From positions 1 to 64,000 of the forward strand of contig JABJKS010000031.1 in the NCBI GenBank assembly GCA_018660265.1: a stretch of DNA of 64,000 bases, given 5' to 3'. Below are positions 22,729 to 34,113 of this stretch, piece after piece. Numbering within the stretch: position 1 is the stretch's first letter; each line of letters begins with the position of its first letter. A program made the position numbers and the translations under genes. The notes beneath the pieces are model-generated. The model searched no databases and had not been told where the DNA came from. It saw only the letters and a program-made list of their open reading frames with translations. This DNA comes from Rhodospirillaceae bacterium. GTDB taxonomy: Bacteria; Pseudomonadota; Alphaproteobacteria; GCA-2731375.

Positions 22729-24453
22729 TTATTTGTGCTCTCTGTTGCGGGCTTCGAATTCTGCAAACTCGCTCATGAACGGCGCGGCGATATCCGCATT
22801 GATTTTGCAATCCAGGAATATCGGACCGTCAGGGTTTTGCAGCATGGGGGCAATGGCGCGCAGATCTTCCAAAGACCGTATGGTCGCTGCTTCATAGCCA
22901 AAAGCCTCGGCAACCGGTGCGAAATCCACATCCGGGAACAGGGATTTGCCGACGGGTTGTTGATGGGCGCGCAACAGGTGTAGCTCCGCCCCATAAGCGC
23001 AATCGTTCATCAGGATGATAATCATGGGCAGATCTTCGCGAGCCGGGGTGTCCAAATCATTCATGCTCATGGAAAATCCGCCATCGCCAACGATTAAAAC
23101 CGTTGTCGCCTCTGGCCGACCTTTGGCCACCCCAAGCGCGGTGCCGAAGCCAAGGCCCAGGGAGGCGAATTCGGAGGTGAACTTAAAATGGCCTGGCCCT
23201 TGGGCCGCGATATAGGGCACGGCACCTAAAAAGTTCCCGGCGTCATAAACCAGATCACGATCACTGGGCAAAAGCCGGTCCAGCTCCATCGCCAGGGCGC
23301 GTGGGTCGACAGTGTGGGCGGTATGGGCGGCCTGGAAATCCGATGCGATATCGAAATCGGCGATGTCCTGGCGGACAGCGGCGGCATGGAAAGGCTTTTC
23401 CCCCGCGCTGCGTTCCGGTGCGGCGGCAAGCAATTGTTCCGCCACCACTTTGGCATCGCCGACCAGGGCCAGATCCGCGCTGGTCCAGCGCCCGATATTG
23501 CTGCGCATACGATCGACTTGGATCAAGGGTACTGCGGGCAGGGAATTGCCGAAACTCATGGTCAGAAAATTCAAACCGGCACCAAAGACCAGCACGCAAT
23601 CGGCCTGTGCGGCATAACGCCGGCCCATGGAGTGGGAGAAGGAGCCGATGATATCAAGGTTATTGGGATTGCCGCGGAACATATCCTTGCCCCGGGCCGA
23701 GGTGATCAATAGCGCACCGATTTTCTCGGCCAGCTTTTCCAACGTCTTGCCCGCATCGGCCCGATGAGCGCCCAGCCCGGCCACGATCAGGGGCCGTTCG
23801 CTGTTGGCAAGCAGGGCCAGGGCGGCATCTATGCCCTGGCTTCGCGTCGGCGCGCCCGGGGCTGGCGCTGGCACGACGATGCCCGGGTCATCATCAGGCA
23901 CGACGATGTCAGCCGTTTGCACGTCGACCGGCAAATGCAGGGTCACTGCATTGCCACGGCTGGCAACGACAATGGCGTCGGCCAGGGCAGCGCGGGCCGC
24001 CTGGGGCGATCTGGGGGAAAATGTCTGAAGGCCGGCTGCCGCCAGCACGCCGCTGGCGTTAAACGCCTTGTAGTCGGGTCCGATTGTATTGACCGCGCCG
24101 CCACCCACCGGCATCTCACCATAAATGATCAGGACTTTTGAGCCGGTACGGGAGGCAGAGACGGCCGCATGCAAACCATTGGCCGCCGCCGGGCCCCGGC
24201 CAATTATGGCAATCCCAAGACGTCCGGTGGTGGAGCTGTAACCCTCCGCCATGGCGATGGCATTATTTTCGTGACGGCCACCGATGAAAGGAATGCCGAT
24301 GGTATCGATCTCGGTCGCGAACAATGCGGTATCATCGCTCATCAATCCGAACACGCATTCAACGCCAAGATTTTTTATGTCATGGGCCAAGGCCTGATAA
24401 GTGGGCATGCGATGCCCGGATTGTGCATTGTCGTTTGTTGAAGCCGTCGTCAT
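22729..24453 (-). CDS. ThDP-dependent acetolactate-synthase-like enzyme
   Basis: 574 aa from the ATG at 24453, which has GGGAGGAATTC before it. It has the three-domain layout of ThDP decarboxylases/synthases. The N-terminal PYR domain has FGLMSDD and the catalytic Glu62 in GGRHENNAIAMAEGY. A central nucleotide-fold domain has LPVDVQTAD. The C-terminal PP domain has GDGGFSMSMNDL followed by MNDCAYG, the GDG...N metal/ThDP motif. Relatives include acetolactate synthase, benzaldehyde lyase and oxalyl-CoA decarboxylase; the substrate cannot be assigned. No regulatory ilvH-like subunit is nearby, arguing against a biosynthetic role. Divergent from a carotenoid oxygenase gene. Confidence 0.85.
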   Translation of the reverse strand: MTTASTNDNAQSGHRMPTYQALAHDIKNLGVECVFGLMSDDTALFATEIDTIGIPFIGGRHENNAIAMAEGYSSTTGRLGIAIIGRGPAAANGLHAAVSASRTGSKVLIIYGEMPVGGGAVNTIGPDYKAFNASGVLAAAGLQTFSPRSPQAARAALADAIVVASRGNAVTLHLPVDVQTADIVVPDDDPGIVVPAPAPGAPTRSQGIDAALALLANSERPLIVAGLGAHRADAGKTLEKLAEKIGALLITSARGKDMFRGNPNNLDIIGSFSHSMGRRYAAQADCVLVFGAGLNFLTMSFGNSLPAVPLIQVDRMRSNIGRWTSADLALVGDAKVVAEQLLAAAPERSAGEKPFHAAAVRQDIADFDIASDFQAAHTAHTVDPRALAMELDRLLPSDRDLVYDAGNFLGAVPYIAAQGPGHFKFTSEFASLGLGFGTALGVAKGRPEATTVLIVGDGGFSMSMNDLDTPAREDLPMIIILMNDCAYGAELHLLRAHQQPVGKSLFPDVDFAPVAEAFGYEAATIRSLEDLRAIAPMLQNPDGPIFLDCKINADIAAPFMSEFAEFEARNREHK

Positions 24454-24569
24454 TCTGAATTCCTCCCAGTTGCCATAGGGCAGCAAATAATTGCCTGCGA
24501 GTATAGATTGTCAGGACATATGCGCAAACAATGCGCTTGCTGTATGGTGGGGGTGGGATTTCATAGGCA

Positions 24570-26030
24570 ATGAACAATCGGGGTGTTGGGGATATGACCA
24601 GCCAGGAAAACGGGAAGCGTTCTTATCCGGTGAACAAGTACCTTGAAGGCAACTACGCGCCGGTAAGTGGCGAGCATGTGGTTGAATTTGAGGATATGGA
24701 GGTGCTGGGTGAAGTGCCCCAGGACCTGGATGGGGTTTATGTACGCAATGGCCCGAATAATCAGCATCCGGCCCTTGGCAACTATCACCGCTATGACGGG
24801 GATGGCATGTTGCATGGGGTGCGTTTTAAAGATGGTCGCGCCACATATCGCAACAAGTGGATCCATACCACCTGCTTTGACGAGGAGGCTGCGGCCGGCG
24901 AGGCCCTGTGGGGCGGTATGCTTGATGCCCGCCGCGGCGACCGGCCTGATATGCCCTTGAAGGATACCGCCAACACGGACGTTGTCATGCATGCGGGCAA
25001 GTTGGTGGCAACCTGGTATATCTCAGGCGATCCCTATCTTGTTGATCCGATAACTTTGGAATCGCTAGGCCAGTCGGATTTCGGCGGCAAACGGACCACA
25101 AAAATTTCGGCGCATTCAAAGACCGACGAAAGTACGGACGATTTCATCTTTTTCGATTACAGCCGGGATTACCCCTATATGAACCATGGGGTGATCGACA
25201 AAAACGGCGCGATGACTGCCTTTACCCCGGTGGAGCTGCCGGGCCCCCGGCTGCCCCATGATATGTGGATCTCTCACAGCTACACGATCCTGCATGATTT
25301 ACCGCTGATTTATGACGAGGAAGCCTATGCCCACGGCCGGGTCAAGCTGCGCTTTGAAGAAGACTGGCCGACCCGGTTCGGCGTGTTGCCCCGCCACGGT
25401 ACAGGCGATGATATCCGTTGGTACGAGTTTGCACCGTGTTATATCCTGCACACCATCAATGCCTGGGAGAACGGCGATTGGCTGCATATGACCGGCTGCC
25501 GGATACAGCCCCACACGGACGGTCAGGGCAATCCGGACCTGCAATCCATCATCACCATCATGGGCCGGCACGGCCTGGATGCCCGCCTGTACCGCTGGTC
25601 GATAAATTTGCTGACCGGCGAGACGAAGGAAAGCCTGTTGGACGATAAATGGAATGCAGAATTCCCCACCTGGAATAATTCCGCTATGGGCGAACCTATG
25701 AAATATGCCTATTGCGCCCAGATCCGTCATGAACCGGTGATCAATTTTCCCGGACTGATGAAATTTGATCTCGATAACGGTGTCTCGGAAGTGCATAGCG
25801 CGGGCCCCGGTTATACCTATTCAGAGGCACCCTTTGCGCCCGCCGTCGGCGCTACGGGGGAGGACCATGGTTATGTAGTCAGCTTCGTACGCAACGCTGA
25901 GGCGGGACAATCCGAGGTCCATATCATTGATGCACAGAATTTCTCTGCCCCGCCGGTCTGTAAACTTATCCTGCCCCATCGCGTCCCCGAAGGCTTCCAC
26001 GCCACCTGGGCGCGGGGCGATCTGTTATAG
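24570..26030 (+). CDS. Carotenoid/stilbene cleavage oxygenase
   Basis: 486 aa (478 if ATG 24594 is used; GGGG lies before both). Non-haem iron dioxygenase of the carotenoid oxygenase (RPE65/lignostilbene dioxygenase) family, cleaving a C=C bond to two carbonyls. The four iron-ligand histidines are visible: His182 (SAHSKTD), His242 (ILHDLP), His294 (HTINAWE) and His477 (EGFHATWARG). Other family markers are GVYVRNGPNNQ and YDGDGMLHGVRF near the N-terminus and FPTWNNSAMGEP-type contacts later. Substrate may be an apocarotenoid or a lignin-type stilbene. It shares a 116-bp divergent promoter region with the ThDP enzyme gene. Confidence 0.92.
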   Translation: MNNRGVGDMTSQENGKRSYPVNKYLEGNYAPVSGEHVVEFEDMEVLGEVPQDLDGVYVRNGPNNQHPALGNYHRYDGDGMLHGVRFKDGRATYRNKWIHTTCFDEEAAAGEALWGGMLDARRGDRPDMPLKDTANTDVVMHAGKLVATWYISGDPYLVDPITLESLGQSDFGGKRTTKISAHSKTDESTDDFIFFDYSRDYPYMNHGVIDKNGAMTAFTPVELPGPRLPHDMWISHSYTILHDLPLIYDEEAYAHGRVKLRFEEDWPTRFGVLPRHGTGDDIRWYEFAPCYILHTINAWENGDWLHMTGCRIQPHTDGQGNPDLQSIITIMGRHGLDARLYRWSINLLTGETKESLLDDKWNAEFPTWNNSAMGEPMKYAYCAQIRHEPVINFPGLMKFDLDNGVSEVHSAGPGYTYSEAPFAPAVGATGEDHGYVVSFVRNAEAGQSEVHIIDAQNFSAPPVCKLILPHRVPEGFHATWARGDLL

Positions 26031-26287
26031 GGGCATTGCCGTTAAGATCAGCAATTTGATAATCACGGATCAATGTTCATTCGGATTGAATGACCATTAC
26101 GGCTTTGGGAATTGTGGTGATTTGGGGCATCTCCGCACTTCACATTGCGGTCGTGTTGGGCTATAAACTGCCACAATCGGCTGGTGAAGCGTGGCGACTA
26201 CGTTGTCGCACCTGACTTTGCGGGCCTGGAATATATCATTTAATCATCGGGTTTTCTGCTTTTATTGGCGGAATTCTGCGGTTTTTC

Positions 26288-26296
26288 AAGGAGAAG
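26288..26296 (+). promoter_or_regulatory. Ribosome binding site of rpsU
   Basis: AAGGAGAAG, a near-perfect anti-SD match, sits seven bases (after GGAG) before CTG 26301 and ten before GTA 26304. It lies inside the frame that would open at ATG 26265, so that ATG is unlikely to be the true start. Confidence 0.7.
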
Positions 26297-26300
26297 ACCA

Positions 26301-26510
26301 CTGGTACAGGTCAGTGTTCGCGACAATAATGTCGATCAGGCGCTTCGTGCCCTGAAAAAGAAGTTACAGCGTGAAGGCGTCTTCCGTGAAATGAAAATGC
26401 GGAAGTATTTTGAGAAGCCTTCAGAACGCCGGGCCCGTGAAAAGGCCGAGGCGGTGCGTCGTGCGCGCAAATTAGCGCGCAAGCGGGCGCAAAAAGAAGG
26501 TTTGCTCTAA
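26301..26510 (+). CDS. rpsU: 30S ribosomal protein bS21, apparent CTG start
   Basis: 69 aa if translation begins at CTG 26301 ([20 protein letters not shown] follows). The body is a textbook bS21: [36 protein letters not shown] and a very basic C-terminal helix ([17 protein letters not shown]). The family normally starts about two residues before the VxVRDN segment, which matches CTG or GTA here. The upstream ATG at 26265 would add [12 protein letters not shown], which bS21 lacks, and has no SD. The stop codon lies within the dispersed repeat, whose hairpin likely terminates the transcript. Confidence 0.9.
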
Positions 26511-26568
26511 AGCAATTTTCAATTGCTCGTTTCTTGAGATTTAGAGCATGTTTAAATCAAACATGCTC
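26511..26568. repeat. Dispersed palindromic intergenic repeat, copy 3
   Basis: A shortened copy immediately after the rpsU stop. AGCAATT (26511-26517) pairs with AATTGCT (26521-26527). The spacer GTTTCTTGAGATTTA follows, then a perfect 10-bp hairpin GAGCATGTTT (26544-26553) with AAACATGCTC (26559-26568). The large palindrome is reduced to its outer arms. Position suggests use as the rpsU terminator. Confidence 0.75.
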
Positions 26569-26942
26569 TGGGGCATCCTATCTCGGGCCTCTGGACTATC
26601 ATGCTGCCAATACTGATCTCCACTGATCTCCACTGATTTGTATTGGGCGCGTTAGCGTGAAGTACGGTGCCAAACTTAGATCTTTAGTATTGGGCTGGCA
26701 GGCCGATTGCGGTCTGCTGTCGTGTGTCTTGTCGTGGCATACAAATCGTCAGGTATTCTCCGCCATTAATCCTTCCCTATCATCGCAATGTGGTATTACG
26801 CTTTAGGCATCGACTAATCCCAATGGTCTGGCGCGGTGATCAGAGAACTCGAAACATTTAGAAAAGGACGTCATTGCCGGCCGCATGTCGGCGGCTTCCT
26901 TGTGTTCGTTTCGCAAACTAAGGCGGGTTCCAAAGTCACGTT
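26569..26942. other. Intergenic region with a short tandem repeat
   Basis: About 370 bp without a gene I can support. The only pattern is a 10-bp tandem repeat, ACTGATCTCC at 26612-26621 and 26622-26631 plus a partial third unit (26632-26639). The remaining part is the leader of the DHA2 exporter gene. I see no regulator motif or conserved RNA. Confidence 0.5.
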
Positions 26943-28454
26943 ATGACAGCTGTCGCGCAGAATGCTGAAGATATCCCGGCGCTTCGCCGCTGGGCCATTC
27001 TGTTTTCGATCACTCTGGCGACAACCCAATACGCCATGGCCATATTGGTGGTCTCGGTGTTGTTGCCGCAGATGCAGGGCTCCCTCTCTGCCACCCAGGA
27101 CGAAATCGCCTGGGTGATGATTTTCAATATCCTGGCCACGGCGGTGATGACACCGATGACAGGCTGGTTGGCGGGACGGTTTGGACGACGCCGGGTCATG
27201 CTGGTCTCCATGGCCGGTTTCTCACTTGCAACGGTGGCCTGCGGATTGTCCACCTCTTTGCCTGTGTTGGTTCTATTTCGTGTTGCCCAGGGTACCTTTG
27301 GTGCGCCTCTTATTCCGTTGGGTCAGGCGATCGTGCTGGACACCTTTCCGAAACGCCAGCACGGTATCGCCACCTCGGTCTTTGGTATGGCGGTGGTGGT
27401 CGGCCCGGTCATCGGGCCCATGCTGGGGGGTATTCTGGCTGAAACCTATGGCTGGCCGGCGGCGTTTTACATGTTTGTTCCGTTCGGCATTATCGCTCTC
27501 GTGGGTATGTTCATGTTCGTCACGGATAATGGGGCGCGGCAGCATACCAGCCTGGATTGGACCGGATTTCTAACCTTGTCAGTGGCGGTGATCGGCCTGC
27601 AATTGCTGCTGTCCAGGGGGCAACGCCTGGATTGGTTTGAAAGCCCCGAAATTATTATCGAAGCGGTTCTGGCAGTGGTCGCCCTGCATCTGTTCATTGT
27701 CCATAGCGTGACGGCGGAGCGGCCGTTTCTGAACCCACGATTATTGCTGGATCGAAATTTCGTTCTGGGGCTGGTGATTGTCAGTATTTACGGCATGTTG
27801 AATTTCACGCCTATGGTATTGCTGCCGCCCATGTTGCAGGGTGTCCTGGGCTATCCGGATTCGATTATTGGCCTGTTGCTGGGCATGCGCGGGGCCGGTG
27901 CCATCGCGGGCTTTTTTGCCGCCATTTTTATCTCCCGCCTGGATCCAAAATTCGGCATGACTTTCGGCTTCGGGCTACAGGTCGCATCGGGCATCTATAT
28001 GGCAGGCTTTGATATGAATACCAGCATCATCGACGTGGCGATCAATTCCATCCTCCAGGGCATGGCGGTCGGGATAATTTGGGTGCCGCTGACCGTGGCA
28101 GCCTTTGCCACGTTGGATAATCGGTACCTGGCGGAAGGATCGGCCGTTTATCATCTGTTACGCAATCTAGGCAGTGCCGTCTTTATCTCCCTCTCCGTGA
28201 CCTTGGTGATTATTTCCACGGCAGACAACTATGCCGGCATGACCGAATTTGTCTCCGATTATAATAAGGTCCTGAACCTGCCGTGGGTATTAGGGCTTTG
28301 GGGCGTGGATAGTGTGCGGGGGCTGACGAGTTTAAGTGGGGAAATCGGCCGCCAGGCTGCCATGATTGGTTATATAAATGCCTTTTGGGCCTATACGATG
28401 GCTTCTTTGGCAGTGATGCCTTTGATATTCTTGGTCCGTGCACGCAAAACGTAA
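26943..28454 (+). CDS. DHA2-family (EmrB/QacA-type) MFS exporter
   Basis: 503 aa with about 14 membrane segments, the DHA2 topology. Visible: helix 1-2 region with VVSVLLPQMQGSL, QDEIAWVMIFNILATA, motif A GWLAGRFGRRRVML, and motif C-like VVGPVIGPMLGGILAETYGW in helix 5. The family exports drugs, dyes or other hydrophobic compounds by proton antiport, often with an EmrA-type adaptor. No adaptor gene is adjacent, so it may act alone. The SD before the ATG is weak. The gene is isolated between long intergenic gaps. Confidence 0.88.
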   Translation: MTAVAQNAEDIPALRRWAILFSITLATTQYAMAILVVSVLLPQMQGSLSATQDEIAWVMIFNILATAVMTPMTGWLAGRFGRRRVMLVSMAGFSLATVACGLSTSLPVLVLFRVAQGTFGAPLIPLGQAIVLDTFPKRQHGIATSVFGMAVVVGPVIGPMLGGILAETYGWPAAFYMFVPFGIIALVGMFMFVTDNGARQHTSLDWTGFLTLSVAVIGLQLLLSRGQRLDWFESPEIIIEAVLAVVALHLFIVHSVTAERPFLNPRLLLDRNFVLGLVIVSIYGMLNFTPMVLLPPMLQGVLGYPDSIIGLLLGMRGAGAIAGFFAAIFISRLDPKFGMTFGFGLQVASGIYMAGFDMNTSIIDVAINSILQGMAVGIIWVPLTVAAFATLDNRYLAEGSAVYHLLRNLGSAVFISLSVTLVIISTADNYAGMTEFVSDYNKVLNLPWVLGLWGVDSVRGLTSLSGEIGRQAAMIGYINAFWAYTMASLAVMPLIFLVRARKT

Positions 28455-28530
28455 GGATATGTTTGCAACAAAATCGTTTTGCGCTAATCTCATCCCAATG
28501 GGTTTTTAATAATAATAAATGGAGAAAATC

Positions 28531-28686
28531 ATGGCCATCGCTAGAGGCGCGCCGCGACGCCAAGGAGAACGCCGCGCAACCGACCGAAGACAACGCAGTG
28601 ACGGGGCACCGGATGGTGTTGAACGGCGACTATCCCTGCGCCGTACGTCCAATCGCCGCGCCGGGGATGACCGCCGCGAGGGTTAG
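28531..28686 (+). CDS. Small Arg-rich protein with diarginine repeats, unknown
   Basis: 51 aa, no family recognised. GGAG lies six bases before the ATG, an ideal spacing. Sixteen of 51 residues are Arg. RR pairs occur at residues 9, 14, 19, then 32, 37, 42 and 48, so the protein is built of RRxxx pentads (RRQGE, RRATD, RRQRS; RRLSL, RRTSN, RRAGD) in two blocks separated by an acidic Gly/Pro turn. It should be soluble, strongly basic and probably disordered or helical, with nucleic acid or acidic-partner binding plausible. A strong hairpin follows at 28715. The 77 bp before it are AT-rich. Confidence 0.5.
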   Translation: MAIARGAPRRQGERRATDRRQRSDGAPDGVERRLSLRRTSNRRAGDDRREG

Positions 28687-28714
28687 CGCGCTTCCGAAAC
28701 AAGATCCAGACGGG

Positions 28715-28755
28715 ATTAACCCGGGTACCCACAACGTCGGGGCACCCGGGTTAAT
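28715..28755. terminator. Strong palindromic hairpin after the small Arg-rich gene
   Basis: ATTAACCCGGGT (28715-28726) and ACCCGGGTTAAT (28744-28755) form a perfect 12-bp stem, extended inward by CCC/GGG pairs. No T-run follows. It probably ends the small Arg-rich transcript, or both flanking transcripts. Confidence 0.55.
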
Positions 28756-28770
28756 GATTCCCTGAAAATG

Positions 28771-28886
28771 AGAGCAATTTTGAATTAATTGGCGTCGCCA
28801 CCGTAGCTTATTTGGCGCGATCCAGGTAATTGGTTCAATTGCTCTTTTTTCTTAAAAGTCTGAGCTTGTTTTAAATAAACCTGCTC
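28771..28886. repeat. Dispersed palindromic intergenic repeat, copy 4
   Basis: The large imperfect palindrome runs 28771-28845 (AGAGCAATT to AATTGCTCT). A TTTTTTCTTAAAAGTCT spacer follows, then a hairpin GAGCTTGTTT (28862-28871) with AAACCTGCTC (28877-28886) containing mismatches, so this copy is decaying. The last base falls in the stop codon of the thiolase gene. Confidence 0.75.
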
Positions 28887-30061
28887 TATGCGACTTCGAA
28901 CAAACCCGCAGCACCCATGCCGCCACCGATGCACATGGTGCAGACGACATACTTGACGCCACGCCGTTTGCCTTCGATCAAGGCGTGGCCCACCATACGC
29001 GCGCCACTCATACCATAGGGGTGGCCAATGGATACGGCACCGCCGTTGACGTTCAGGTTCTCATCCGCAATGCCCAGACGATCCCGGCAATATAGTACCT
29101 GAACGGCAAAAGCCTCGTTCAGTTCCCATAAGCCGATATCATCGACGGTCAGGCCATTACGCTCCAACAATTTTGGTACGGCAAAGACCGGGCCAATACC
29201 CATTTCATCAGGCTCGCAACCGGCCACGGCCAAGCCACGATAGATGCCCAGGGGCTGGATGCCGCGCTGTTCGGCCAGCTTGCTGTCCATGACCACGGCA
29301 GCCGAGGCACCATCGGAAAGTTGCGAGGCGTTGCCGGCTGTAATGGCACCACCATCGATGACCGGTTTCAGGCCCACAAGGCCTTCCATATTGGTGGAGG
29401 GGCGGTTGCCCTCATCCTTATCAAGGGTGACCTCCTTTTCACTGATTTCGCCGGTTTCCTTGTTGGCAACTTTCATGATGGACGTCATGGGCACGATTTC
29501 ATCATCGAATTTACCCGCCTGTTGCGCTGCGGCTGTACGCATCTGGCTTTGCAGGCCATAGGCATCCATGTCTTCACGCTTCACGCCATAGCGGTTCGTG
29601 ACAACTTCCGCCGTATTCAGCATGGCCATATAGATATCATTGGATTTATCAATAACCGACTGATTGGCGCGGTTGTTCATGTCGCCATTCTGGACCAACG
29701 AAATAGACTCAACGCCGCCACCGATACAGATCGGCATGCCATCGTCGATCACCTGTTTGGCAGCGGTCGCAATGGCCATCATGCCTGACGAACATTGCCG
29801 ATCCAGGGTCATGCCGCTGACGCCCACCGGCAGACCGGCGGCAAGCAGGCTTTGCCGGGCCGTGTTGCCGCCCGTGGTACCCTGTTGCATGGCGCAACCC
29901 AGGATCACGTCGTCAACCTCGGCTGGATCAATGCCGGCCTTGGCGACCGCATGCTGGATTGCGTGCCCAGCCATGGCCGGACCTTCGGTGTTATTAAAGG
30001 CACCGCGATAGGCTTTGCCGATCGGGGTGCGGGCAGTGGAAACAATGACGGCTTCTTTCAT
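28886..30061 (-). CDS. Acetyl-CoA acetyltransferase (thiolase)
   Basis: 391 aa, standard thiolase length. Catalyses acyl-CoA plus acetyl-CoA condensation or thiolytic cleavage. The nucleophile is Cys90 in LDRQCSSGM. The C-terminal catalytic pair is His347 ([17 protein letters not shown]) and Cys377 ([10 protein letters not shown]). The N-terminal [17 protein letters not shown] is typical. Sequence style ([12 protein letters not shown]) suits degradative or broad-range FadA-like enzymes. It is last of three minus-strand genes (isochorismatase-like, ThDP enzyme, thiolase), 75 nt after the ThDP gene, so cotranscription is possible. Confidence 0.93.
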
Positions 30062-30136
30062 AAGAAATCTCCTGACGTTGGGATCGGATAGGGGTCTTTA
30101 CAGTTGCCGCAATATAACCGCCGTACGCGATGGACA

Positions 30137-31780
30137 CTAGCCGCTTTGTTTGCCTTGGGACGGTGGCCGGCGGATCAGGGCCCAGACGTTGGGTGCCTCG
30201 GCCATGGGGATGGTGATCAGGCTGGGCTGTTCCGCATCGAGATGGCGGCGCAGGACGTCTTCCAACTGGGCGGGATCCGTTACCCTGTCTGCCATCATGC
30301 CGTAGGCTTCCGCCATGGCGACAAAATCCGGATTGGTCAGATCAACGGCGATGTGCCGACCGCCGTAATTATTGGCCTGGATGGTTTTGACGTTGCCATA
30401 AGCACTATTGTCAAACACGATTACCACGACGGGTATCTTGTGATGTACGGCGGTGGCCAGCTCCTGCACCGTGAACATGAAACCGCCGTCACCACAAATA
30501 GCGATAACTTTGCGGTCCGGCCGGGCAACTTTACCCCCCAGGGCCGCGGGATAGGCCCAGCCCAGGGTGGCCTGATAACCGGGCATGAAAAAGCTGCGCG
30601 GTTCGTATATGGGCATGGCGAAGCGGGCAAAAACTGTAAAGCGGGTGACATCGGCAAAGATAATACCGTCCCGGGGCAGCGCGGCCCTAATGGCGTCGCA
30701 GTAACCAGCTAAAGGTGCCAGATCGGCCAGCCGGGCATTGGCATCGTCGCGAATGGACGCTGCTTCCGGCCAAACAACGGGGCTCACCCCAAGTTTCCCA
30801 AGAACGCTATCCAATGCCGCCAACCCCAGTTCGGCGGAGGTCACCATGGCGATATCAGCCTCGACGGGTTTCACGATCTGGGTCGGGTCGATGTCAATGC
30901 GGATCAGATCCACCTCGTCCACCCGGCCCCAGGACAGGCCGACGTTGGTGTGACGGCTGCCAACCACCAGAGCCGCATCCGCCAGGTCCCATAATTCCTG
31001 CCCCGGCAGCATGGAGTAGGCCAGGGGATGATCGCCTGGAATAGCGCCCAAGGCATTGGGGGTCATAATAACCGGGGCACCCACACGTTCGGCCAGTTTT
31101 ACCAGGGCATCTTCGGCATCAACGCAACCACCCCCCGCGATAATTACCGGGTGGGTGGCTTTCGCCAGACAGGCCGCGGCCCTTTGCACCATTTCGGGGT
31201 CCGGCTCCGGCGCGGGCACCGCGGTCATTGCGGCCATGGACGGCTGTTGGCTGACTTGGCCCTTGCTGCCCAGAGTGTCGGGTGCCATCTCCAATATCGC
31301 GGGGCTTTTTCGGCCTGCGTTCATGTGGCGAAAGGCGCTGGCCAATAGATCCGGTACGGCGCTTGGGTGATCTGCCCGTTCCACCCAATCAATGACGCCC
31401 CGGGCCATGGCCAGTTGATCTTTTAACTCGTGGGCCATGCCGTAATTCTGCCCAATCTGGTAGGACGGTATCTGCCCGGTCAGGCCCAACATGGGTAGAT
31501 TGGCAGAGGCGCCGGTCGCCACCGCTGTCATGGCATTCAACAGGCCCGGCCCCGGCACCACGGCAAAAACCCCTGGCTTGCCACTGACCTGGGCATAGCC
31601 CATGGCCATGAAGGCCGCTCCCTGTTCATGGCGGCTGTGGATGACGCGGAGATTATTCCGTGCTTCGAAAAAGGCATCGAATAGATTATCCAGCTGAATG
31701 CCTGGTATGCCGAATACGGTATCCACATCGTGGTCGCGCAGACTTTGTACGATGGCTTGTCCACCGGTCATCGTGGCCAT
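30137..31780 (-). CDS. ThDP-dependent acetolactate-synthase-like enzyme
   Basis: 547 aa. PYR domain with VFGIPGIQLDNLFDA and catalytic Glu52 (SRHEQGAAFMAMGYA). The central FAD/nucleotide-fold domain has PVIIAGGGCVDAEDAL. The PP domain has GDGGFMFTVQELATA followed by FDNSAYGNVK, the ThDP/Mg2+ motif. This resembles the acetolactate synthase large-subunit branch, but no regulatory subunit is adjacent, so a catabolic carboligase or decarboxylase is more likely. A second paralogue lies at 22729. It is 17 nt after the isochorismatase-like gene, in the same operon. Confidence 0.87.
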   Translation of the reverse strand: MATMTGGQAIVQSLRDHDVDTVFGIPGIQLDNLFDAFFEARNNLRVIHSRHEQGAAFMAMGYAQVSGKPGVFAVVPGPGLLNAMTAVATGASANLPMLGLTGQIPSYQIGQNYGMAHELKDQLAMARGVIDWVERADHPSAVPDLLASAFRHMNAGRKSPAILEMAPDTLGSKGQVSQQPSMAAMTAVPAPEPDPEMVQRAAACLAKATHPVIIAGGGCVDAEDALVKLAERVGAPVIMTPNALGAIPGDHPLAYSMLPGQELWDLADAALVVGSRHTNVGLSWGRVDEVDLIRIDIDPTQIVKPVEADIAMVTSAELGLAALDSVLGKLGVSPVVWPEAASIRDDANARLADLAPLAGYCDAIRAALPRDGIIFADVTRFTVFARFAMPIYEPRSFFMPGYQATLGWAYPAALGGKVARPDRKVIAICGDGGFMFTVQELATAVHHKIPVVVIVFDNSAYGNVKTIQANNYGGRHIAVDLTNPDFVAMAEAYGMMADRVTDPAQLEDVLRRHLDAEQPSLITIPMAEAPNVWALIRRPPSQGKQSG

Positions 31781-31797
31781 TATTTCTTTTCCTTTAT

Positions 31798-32418
31798 TCA
31801 GGTTAGGGCGGCGATGATGTCGGCGCTGGATTGGACCCAGCCGAACTTCATTGCAAAATTTCTCAGCGTGGCAGTGTGGAGTTCGGGGTCGAAGGAGGAT
31901 ACCGCATCGGAAACCATGGTGGTGGGAAAGCGGTGGTGGAAAGCTTGACGCCCGGTTTCCTCAACACAGATTTGCGTCACCGTACCTGTCAGAACCAGGG
32001 AGCCAACGCCCATGTCCCGTAGGGAATCGTTCAACGGGGTGCCATGGAATGCGCCGTAGCCATATTTCTCAATGATCAAATCGTCTGCTTCCGGACGCAA
32101 CTCATCGATAATTTCGGTGCATTCAAGGGTCGTATCCAGGTCCGAATAGTGACGCTTATGACCTTGCCAACAGCATTTCGTATGGGGTTCGCATTCAGGC
32201 GACCAGATCCAACCCATGCTGGGCGCTTGGGTGGAGAGGAATTTGGTATAGATCACAGGATGGCCATGGGTGCGAAACGCAGCGATCAGGGCCTGATGGG
32301 CGGGCACCGTCACCAGGGCATCCGGCACTTGCAAGGGGCCATTCTGACGGACAAAATCGTTCTGCATATCGACAATCAATAGGGCCGGGTTTTTCAGTGG
32401 GTTATTTTGCTTGTTCAT
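31798..32418 (-). CDS. Isochorismatase-like cysteine hydrolase
   Basis: 206 aa. The Asp-Lys-Cys triad of this superfamily is visible: Asp17 ([11 protein letters not shown]), Lys118 ([10 protein letters not shown]) and Cys151 ([14 protein letters not shown]). The cis-peptide-type GTVTQ precedes the Cys. Members hydrolyse amides or vinyl ethers (nicotinamidase, N-carbamoylsarcosine amidase, biuret hydrolase, isochorismatase). Which applies here cannot be read. First gene of the three-gene minus-strand group; its start region is divergent from the GMC oxidoreductase, with about 100 bp between. Confidence 0.88.
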
Positions 32419-32500
32419 GCGTGGCCTGCCTTCGTCTCTGATCTCTGGTTGCGACTTGGACCCAGGATAGCGTTAGGATGTGGGCAAAACCAATATTATC

Positions 32501-32510
32501 GAGGAGAAGC
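32501..32510 (+). promoter_or_regulatory. Ribosome binding site that fixes the GMC start at GTG
   Basis: GAGGAGAAGC lies eight bases before GTG 32515, where the FAD-binding strand begins two residues later. The upstream frame to 32407 lacks this SD and would overlap the divergent gene's start. Confidence 0.6.
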
Positions 32511-32514
32511 GGTC

Positions 32515-34113
32515 GTGGATTTTGATTATATCGTCGTCGGTGCCGGCTCTGCCGGCTGTGTCTTGGCCAATCGGTTAAGTGAAAAACCCCTGTCCCGCAC
32601 CTTGTTACTGGAAGCAGGTGGCAAGGATAGCTCCATCTGGATCCACGTGCCCGTGGGCTTTACCAAGACGCTGAACGATAAATCGGTGAATTGGTGCTTT
32701 GAGACCGAGCCTGAGGAAAATACCGGCAATCGCAAGATACCCATTCCGCGCGGCAAGGTTCTGGGTGGTTCGTCGTCCATCAACGGTATGTTGTATGTCC
32801 GCGGCCAGGCTCAGGACTATGACACCTGGGCCCAGATGGGCAATCGCGGTTGGTCCTATGACGCAGTGCTACCCTATTTCAAAAAATCCGAACGGTTTGA
32901 GCGGGGGAGTTCCGATCTGCGTGGTGGCGATGGTCCCATGAACGTCGCCGATATGCGGGCCAGCCATAAGCTGTTGGACGCCATGATAGAAGCGGGTGGT
33001 CAGGCCGGCTATGGCATCAATCCGGATTACAACGGCGATAAGCAAGACGGTTTTGGTTACTACCAAGTGACCCAACGTGGCGGTCGTCGGCATTCTGCAG
33101 CCCGCGCCTTTTTGGGGCCGGCCTCTCATCGCGCTAATCTGGAGATAGAGACCAATGCCATCGCCGGACGTTTGATTGTGGAGGGTAAGCGCGTGGTTGG
33201 CGTTGAGTACACGGTCAACGGCCAGACCCGTCAGGCCCGCGCAAGGCGCGAAGTGATTTTGAGTGCCGGTGCGGTGCAATCGCCCCAATTGCTGGAACTA
33301 TCAGGCATTGGCCAGCCGGAATTGTTGCAAGATCTGGGCATCGACGTGGTGCACGCTTTGCCCGGCGTTGGGGAAAACTATCGTGACCATTATACCACAC
33401 GGGTCAATTGGCGGGTCCGGAATGCGACGACCCTGAACGAACAAAGCCGGGGCTGGCGTCTCGGTCTAGAGGTGATGAAATACGCGATCGCCCGGAAGGG
33501 TATGCTGACCTACACCGCCGGCATCGTGCATGGTTTCGTCCGCAGCCGGGCGGAGCTGGCAACCCCTGATGTGCAATTCCATGGCGCCCACGCCAGCTAT
33601 GCCACCTCGAAAGACCGGGTCTTGGATCAAAAGCCGGGGATGACGATTGCAGCCTGTCAGCTGCGTCCTGAAAGCCGGGGCTCCATCCATATTCGCGATA
33701 GCCGGCCGGGTTCGGAACCGGCCATCAGGCCGAATTTTCTGGCTGACGAGATCGACCGCGCGGCCCTGATCGCAGGCTTGCGCATCGCCCGTGATTTGGG
33801 CGACCAACCTGCCTTAAAGCCCTATGTGGAACACGAGATGAATCCCGGCGGAGATGTGCATAGCGACGATGAATTCCTCGATTACGCCAGGGCCACCGGT
33901 TCCACGGTCTTTCATCCCATCGGCACCTGCCGCATGGGCGATGACCCGATGGCGGTGGTGGATGACCGCCTGTCCGTGCACGGGATGGAGGGCCTGCGCG
34001 TCGTCGATGCCTCCATCATGCCGACCCTCGTCTCGGGCAATACCCACGCCCCCACGGTCATGATCGCGGAAAAAGCCGCTTCTATGATATTAGACGATGC
34101 GGCACAGTCTTAA
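32515..34113 (+). CDS. GMC-family FAD oxidoreductase (choline dehydrogenase-like)
   Basis: 532 aa from the GTG. Flavin-dependent alcohol oxidation. The ADP-binding fold is at residues 4-33 ([19 protein letters not shown], ending LLLEAGG). The GMC signature occupies about 80-97 ([18 protein letters not shown]). A second signature includes [16 protein letters not shown]-terminal active-site residues are His in [10 protein letters not shown] and His in [16 protein letters not shown]. The substrate is open (choline, polyethylene glycol, long-chain or other alcohols). It lies 48 nt before the TTC38-like gene, same strand. Confidence 0.92.

Follow-up and report, generated by a model that had tools for sequence, protein, structure and literature searches.

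Purifying selection acts on a protein-coding gene at 28531-28686 of the window (the whole 64,000-nucleotide stretch of DNA that was analysed), and this gene almost certainly encodes a real protein. The forward-strand translation is MAIARGAPRRQGERRATDRRQRSDGAPDGVERRLSLRRTSNRRAGDDRREG, followed by a stop codon. Arginine accounts for 16 of the 51 residues (31%), lysine is absent, and eight residues are acidic. An earlier note made from the sequence had described this open reading frame, a well-placed Shine-Dalgarno sequence, and the high arginine content, and all three were seen as described (Table 1). The family of this small protein is confined, as far as was searched, to one small family of uncultured Alphaproteobacteria.

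The start at 28531 is favoured over an alternative in-frame ATG at 28519, which would give a 55-aa product, both by the alignment and by conservation of the ribosome site. GGAG precedes the start in all other copies except that of G009, where a different purine-rich stretch is found in its place.

Table 1. Coordinates of the features in and around the small gene, in window numbering
Feature	Coordinates	Strand	Basis
rpsU (ribosomal protein S21; probably starts within these coordinates)	26265..26510	+	PF01165, TIGR00030
DHA2/EmrB-type MFS efflux transporter gene	26943..28454	+	TIGR00711, 302 bits against a cut-off of 230.2; synteny
Ribosome-binding site GGAG	28521..28524	+	6 nt ahead of the ATG, read from the sequence
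Gene of the small protein with the arginine lattice (51 aa; net charge, +8)	28531..28686	+	Translation, homologues, dN<dS, Arg codon drift, 15 invariant Arg
Block 1 (RR at 9-10, 14-15, 19-20; acidic residues 13 and 18 preceding the second and third pairs)	28555..28593	+	Alignment
Turn G-[AP]-P (residues 25-27) joining the blocks	28603..28611	+	G25 and P27 invariant in the nine full-length copies
Block 2 (RR at 32-33, 37-38, 42-43, 48-49; residues 31 and 47 acidic; helix at 29-49 predicted with low confidence)	28621..28677	+	Alignment, AlphaFold2
Hairpin, perfect 12-bp stem (arms 28715-28726 and 28744-28755)	28715..28755		Sequence; fold z -3.3
Acetyl-CoA C-acyltransferase (thiolase) gene, convergent neighbour	28886..30061	-	NF005494, 618.9 bits against 615

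Homologues and selection

The protein was searched against 61 genomes, and a profile was searched against all 15 genomes of the family, which are also the 15 genomes of the order. Nine full-length copies were found, including that of the window (G000, G001, G002, G003, G005, G006, G008, G009, and G011). The eight from other family genomes encode proteins of 50-54 aa with 46-67% identity to the window protein, and G004 carries one shortened copy. The profile search retrieved no copy from G007, G010, G013, or G014, and its weak match in G012 (E 0.009) is probably unrelated to the small gene.

The alignment of the nine sequences has 15 invariant lattice arginines (R5 and seven pairs) together with invariant M1, D18, Q21, G25, and P27. 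All 135 lattice cells were occupied by arginine and none by lysine, and the remaining columns held three arginines and five lysines. Positions 13, 18, 31, and 47 were acidic in all nine sequences. The arginine codons drifted among CGN and AGR, with residue 33 encoded by five different codons across the nine copies. Pairwise differences were 0.571 at the third codon position versus 0.296 and 0.281 at the other two, and the mean dN was 0.38 (36 pairs) compared with a mean dS of 1.39 (34 pairs with a computable dS). Conservation of the frame, the start, the ribosome site, and the residues extends over two genera.

The proposal of the earlier note that this is a real, unannotated coding gene is thus strongly supported by the homologues, the purifying selection, and the synonymous drift at arginine codons. 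The check it had suggested, conservation of the RR positions with synonymous drift, gave that very pattern. Stops and frameshifts, which were sought in the relatives, were absent from the nine full-length copies; one copy is shortened in frame, and two relatives of the same genus have no copy.

Spacing of the arginine pairs

The RR pairs begin at residues 9, 14, and 19 in block 1 and at residues 32, 37, 42, and 48 in block 2. A fixed five-residue spacing in two blocks had been claimed for them, and this holds for every step except the last, which spans six residues. Chance was measured as the frequency, over 200,000 residue shuffles, of the observed four RR pairs with another RR five residues on. 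This count was attained in 0.07% of the residue shuffles and in 2.2% when RR was kept as units; the spacing by itself is therefore only suggestive. RRxxxRRxxxRR also arises fortuitously in numerous Arg-rich frames (34 further loci among the 80 scanned), and conservation is what settles the reality of the gene.

Genomic neighbourhood

The small gene is fixed directly behind one DHA2 MFS gene. In all ten carriers (the nine with full-length copies and G004), the same DHA2/EmrB-type permease gene is its immediate upstream neighbour and runs in the same direction. The gap between the permease stop and the small gene was poorly conserved and ranged from 49 to 242 nt across the carriers. In the window, it is 76 nt to the ATG at 28531, or 64 nt if counted to the in-frame upstream ATG, and the gaps in G008 and G002 are likewise shorter when counted in this way.

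Orthologous permeases (77-90% identity) were present in 12 genomes, and in 11 of them rpsU precedes the permease gene. These include nine of the ten carriers, the exception (G009) being a contig edge. The rpsU-MFS order is present also without the small gene in two genomes and may be mere synteny. The thiolase gene adjoins the small gene in eight of the ten carriers and was not found in G009 or G011; it is not a conserved partner. Of nine neighbours tested, only rpsU, the permease gene, and the small gene are kept in G011, a genome of another genus in which the contig ends soon after.

The region 22729-34113 of the window also holds genes for two TPP enzymes, a carotenoid-oxygenase-type (RPE65) protein, and the thiolase, as well as, by eye, an isochorismatase-like hydrolase and a GMC-type oxidoreductase. 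This gene set would suit aromatic or fatty-acid breakdown.

Gene loss and the shortened copy

G007 and G010, which belong to the same genus, carry rpsU, the permease gene, and the thiolase gene, and the small gene is absent from both. As these two genomes retain the rpsU-MFS order without it, the small gene is dispensable. In total, it is absent or shortened in three of the 11 same-genus genomes. The permease tree comprised 14 rows, with G014 left out because its permease is cut by the contig end. In this tree, the carrier G002 pairs with G007 within the clade that holds G010 (97/94 support), a grouping that requires at least two losses, or one loss and a regain. The gap in G007 shares a 10-nt match with the ribosome-site leader of G002, which was attained by 12 of 2000 shuffles and hints at a deletion.

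Compared with its sister G005, the copy in G004 has an in-frame loss that takes in the end of block 1, the turn, and part of block 2. The junction leaves the five-residue register unbroken, and one lattice arginine is replaced by cysteine. This copy may represent either a variant that is tolerated or an early stage of decay.

Hairpin and regulatory signals

The perfect 12-bp hairpin that the earlier note had placed after the gene exists as described, and it is not part of the function of the small gene. The stretch folds at -29.9 kcal/mol (z -3.3), carries no T run, and is located in the gap common to the small gene and the convergent thiolase gene. G010, which has no small gene, likewise carries a strong hairpin in this gap (the folded stretch gives z -3.0), and on this ground the hairpin was rejected as part of a small-gene system. 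A hairpin was also predicted in G006, where the longer stretch was unexceptional overall (z -1.2). The window hairpin is a probable terminator region between convergent genes.

A sigma-54 promoter in the MFS-gene gap was considered and dropped, as good matches were confined to G001 (11 specified consensus positions) and G011 (10) among the ten gaps. Scans for sigma-70 promoters and terminators gave about the same yield as shuffles.

Family, structure, and literature searches

No Pfam family matched the small protein at E values up to 10, so neither the DUF1127 profile nor the PilZ domain was matched; the RxxxR element resembles that of PilZ c-di-GMP receptors. No match to the small protein was found in NCBIfam or PDB, and none of the nine family members matched PHROGs. 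The search for plasmid homologues returned none. No relative was found on viral contigs, a weak negative since the same search missed known homologues in genome contigs. As contigs of known carriers in the searched collection went unfound, negatives from such searches for relatives are weak for a low-complexity peptide. No description of this small-protein family was found in the open-licence literature.

Inspection of the alignment revealed no hydrophobic stretch in any of the nine sequences, and thus no transmembrane helix and no twin-arginine hydrophobic core. There is a single aromatic residue across all nine sequences and no cysteine, which argues against membrane insertion or metal binding.

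Look-alike arrays in other proteins

In a sample of the class, six of 385 genomes matched at E 0.001 or better; two were family carriers and four were partial matches in larger frames. In a sample of the phylum, the two of 398 genomes matching at E 0.0001 or better were the genome of the window itself and G514. In a search with a loose lattice pattern, the reversed control matched more often than the pattern itself, and a tighter pentad pattern found matches in 22 of 385 genomes, several of which were simple DNA repeats.

The ORF in G514 (L253, G514:C263:1138-1404; 89 aa from GTG) contains DRR-x2-DRRQ, G-P-P, and ERR-x3-RR-x3-RR, followed by a hydrophobic stretch. It is flanked by frames that we take, by eye, to resemble anmK and yaaA. 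A weakly similar ORF was found in one of 60 relatives of G514 (G501, 31%, E 2.3e-4). Among the matches of the tighter pattern were four genomes of the alphaproteobacterial genus g42 whose GNAT-like proteins (L106-L109) have tails made up of two [DE]RR-pentad blocks separated by a spacer, and one of these proteins matched TIGR04045 far below the cut-off. The genome of the window also encodes a 341-aa protein behind Suf-like genes (labels by eye; L100 3128-4150, G000:C27). It has an N-terminus with a helix-turn-helix look (by eye), a run of [DE]RR pentads, a Pro/Ala-rich linker, and a probable coiled coil. The 341-aa protein had no Pfam or NCBIfam match. Its relatives were found in four of the 14 other family genomes, with the array stretch apparently missing in G002. 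Another short ORF dense in [DE]RR pentads, with 72 codons between stops, was observed at L112 (G137:C80).

The g42 and 341-aa proteins share runs of [DE]RRxx with the small protein, and the GNAT-like tails also share two blocks with a spacer; unlike the small protein, these runs sit inside larger proteins. Judged from the sequences, low-complexity similarity is enough to explain the likeness of the G514, g42, and 341-aa arrays to the small protein. One reading, which we consider rather improbable, makes the lattice of two blocks (RR-x3-RR-x3-RR, G-x-P, RR-x3-RR-x3-RR-x4-RR, acidic residues at fixed places) a portable, Arg-specific binding module that would dock its carriers on RNA or another polyanion, being free beside rpsU-MFS, tethered to a membrane helix in G514, and a tail on GNAT-like enzymes.

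Candidate targets and competing explanations

The product would be a soluble peptide, disordered or helical, in which two blocks of arginine pairs are linked by a G-x-P turn. AlphaFold2 returned a mean pLDDT of 64.3 and a pTM of 0.25, with helix only at residues 29-49 and at low confidence. The RRxx[DE] spacing, in which an acidic residue follows the preceding pair, would permit i to i+3/i+4 salt bridges. A polyanion could then neutralise a block and turn it into a helix with arginines around its entire girth; RR every five residues is not one helical face, as each step turns by 5 x 100 degrees and so distributes the pairs over all sides. Since arginine is never replaced by lysine in the lattice, contact with phosphates, guanines, or carboxylates probably depends on the two-pronged Arg group. 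The G004 copy, which loses the turn in frame yet holds the five-residue register, was counted toward this cationic-peptide reading. Binding to nucleic acid or to acidic protein surfaces, as suggested in the earlier note, fits the composition and the Arg-not-Lys constraint.

RNA is our tentative first choice of target, as for small Arg-rich RNA binders. Binders with an Arg-rich motif, such as lambda N, P22 N, and HIV Rev, use a short helical or induced-fit Arg-rich stretch, as in the small protein; unlike them, it has two blocks, a strict pair lattice, and no phage family match. The neighbour rpsU, which encodes a ribosomal RNA-binding protein, was counted toward RNA; that a transporter gene rather than an RNA gene forms the tightest genomic link was counted against it. 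The second choice, in a near draw with RNA and no less tentative, is an acidic surface of an inner-membrane protein, with the neighbouring transporter first in line.

The precedent of DUF1127 is split. RNA binding is reported for CcaF1, a small DUF1127 protein rich in arginine, and binding to PhoR for the DUF1127 SDPs of Agrobacterium (PMC12501420), and YjiS is reported to associate with the inner membrane (PMC11707872). CcaF1 was counted for the favoured reading and the other two against it, as were the low AlphaFold2 confidence and the dispensability of the gene. RNA-binding and membrane- or protein-binding roles are thus both reported for DUF1127 members. DUF1127 proteins (CcaF1, 71 aa; YjiS, 54 aa; the Agrobacterium SDPs) are small, Arg-rich, proteobacterial, and without an experimental structure, like the small protein. 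The latter differs in having no Pfam match and in its RR lattice, acidic partners, and G-x-P turn.

It is possible, at a level much like that of the acidic membrane-protein surface, that the product is a transporter modulator that is co-expressed with the DHA2 permease, docks on its acidic cytosolic loops or the surrounding anionic lipid, and alters activity, stability, or specificity in the manner of AcrZ, SgrT, and MgtS. The position directly behind the orthologous permease gene in every carrier, with the thiolase gene missing in two of the ten, favours this explanation, as does the RR/G-P-P/RR stretch followed by a hydrophobic stretch in the distant look-alike of G514. Small proteins that adjust bacterial transporters are well established, as stated in a review (PMC10710835), and the known modulators (AcrZ, 49 aa; SgrT; MgtS; WatS1, 55 aa) are of similar size to the small protein, whose gene always adjoins a transporter gene. 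AcrZ is described in that review (PMC10710835) as a helix that encloses the transmembrane domains of AcrB like a belt, whereas the small protein has no hydrophobic segment. The variable gap leaves tight co-expression unsupported, and the permease is retained without the small gene in two genomes. Only two permease columns, both uncharged, separate the carriers from the two same-genus non-carriers; co-varying acidic permease residues were sought, and none track the presence of the small gene.

An unlikely explanation is that of a general polyanion ligand without a specific partner, which would act in a protamine-like manner in DNA compaction or associate with polyphosphate, anionic lipid, or ribosomes. 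The net charge of +7 to +11 across the family, the low complexity, and the lack of a confident fold are consistent with it; the fixed pairs, the invariant acidic residues and turn, and the exclusion of lysine are stricter than bulk charge demands.

A non-coding or decaying stretch, that is, a chance Arg-rich frame in GC-rich DNA, is highly improbable and was rejected, as the frequency of the pattern in unrelated frames, the shuffle with RR units, and the absence or shortening of the gene in some same-genus genomes speak for it but conservation and synonymous codon drift over two genera contradict it. Equally remote is a phage-derived, antiterminator-like peptide of the lambda N type with the downstream hairpin as its target: the hairpin lies 3' of the small gene and N proteins have Arg-rich motifs to which a short block of this kind is similar, but the PHROGs and viral-contig searches gave no relative (the latter a weak negative) and a hairpin is present in G010 without the gene.

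Significance

The small protein represents a new family, unlabelled before, of a known general kind, that of Arg-rich small proteins such as DUF1127, and not a new kind of system. Its strict constraint, with arginine never replaced by lysine at 15 fixed places, allows a clean test of what sets arginine apart from lysine in a binding peptide of minimal size. The permease, whose gene is always adjacent, is the first partner candidate to try.
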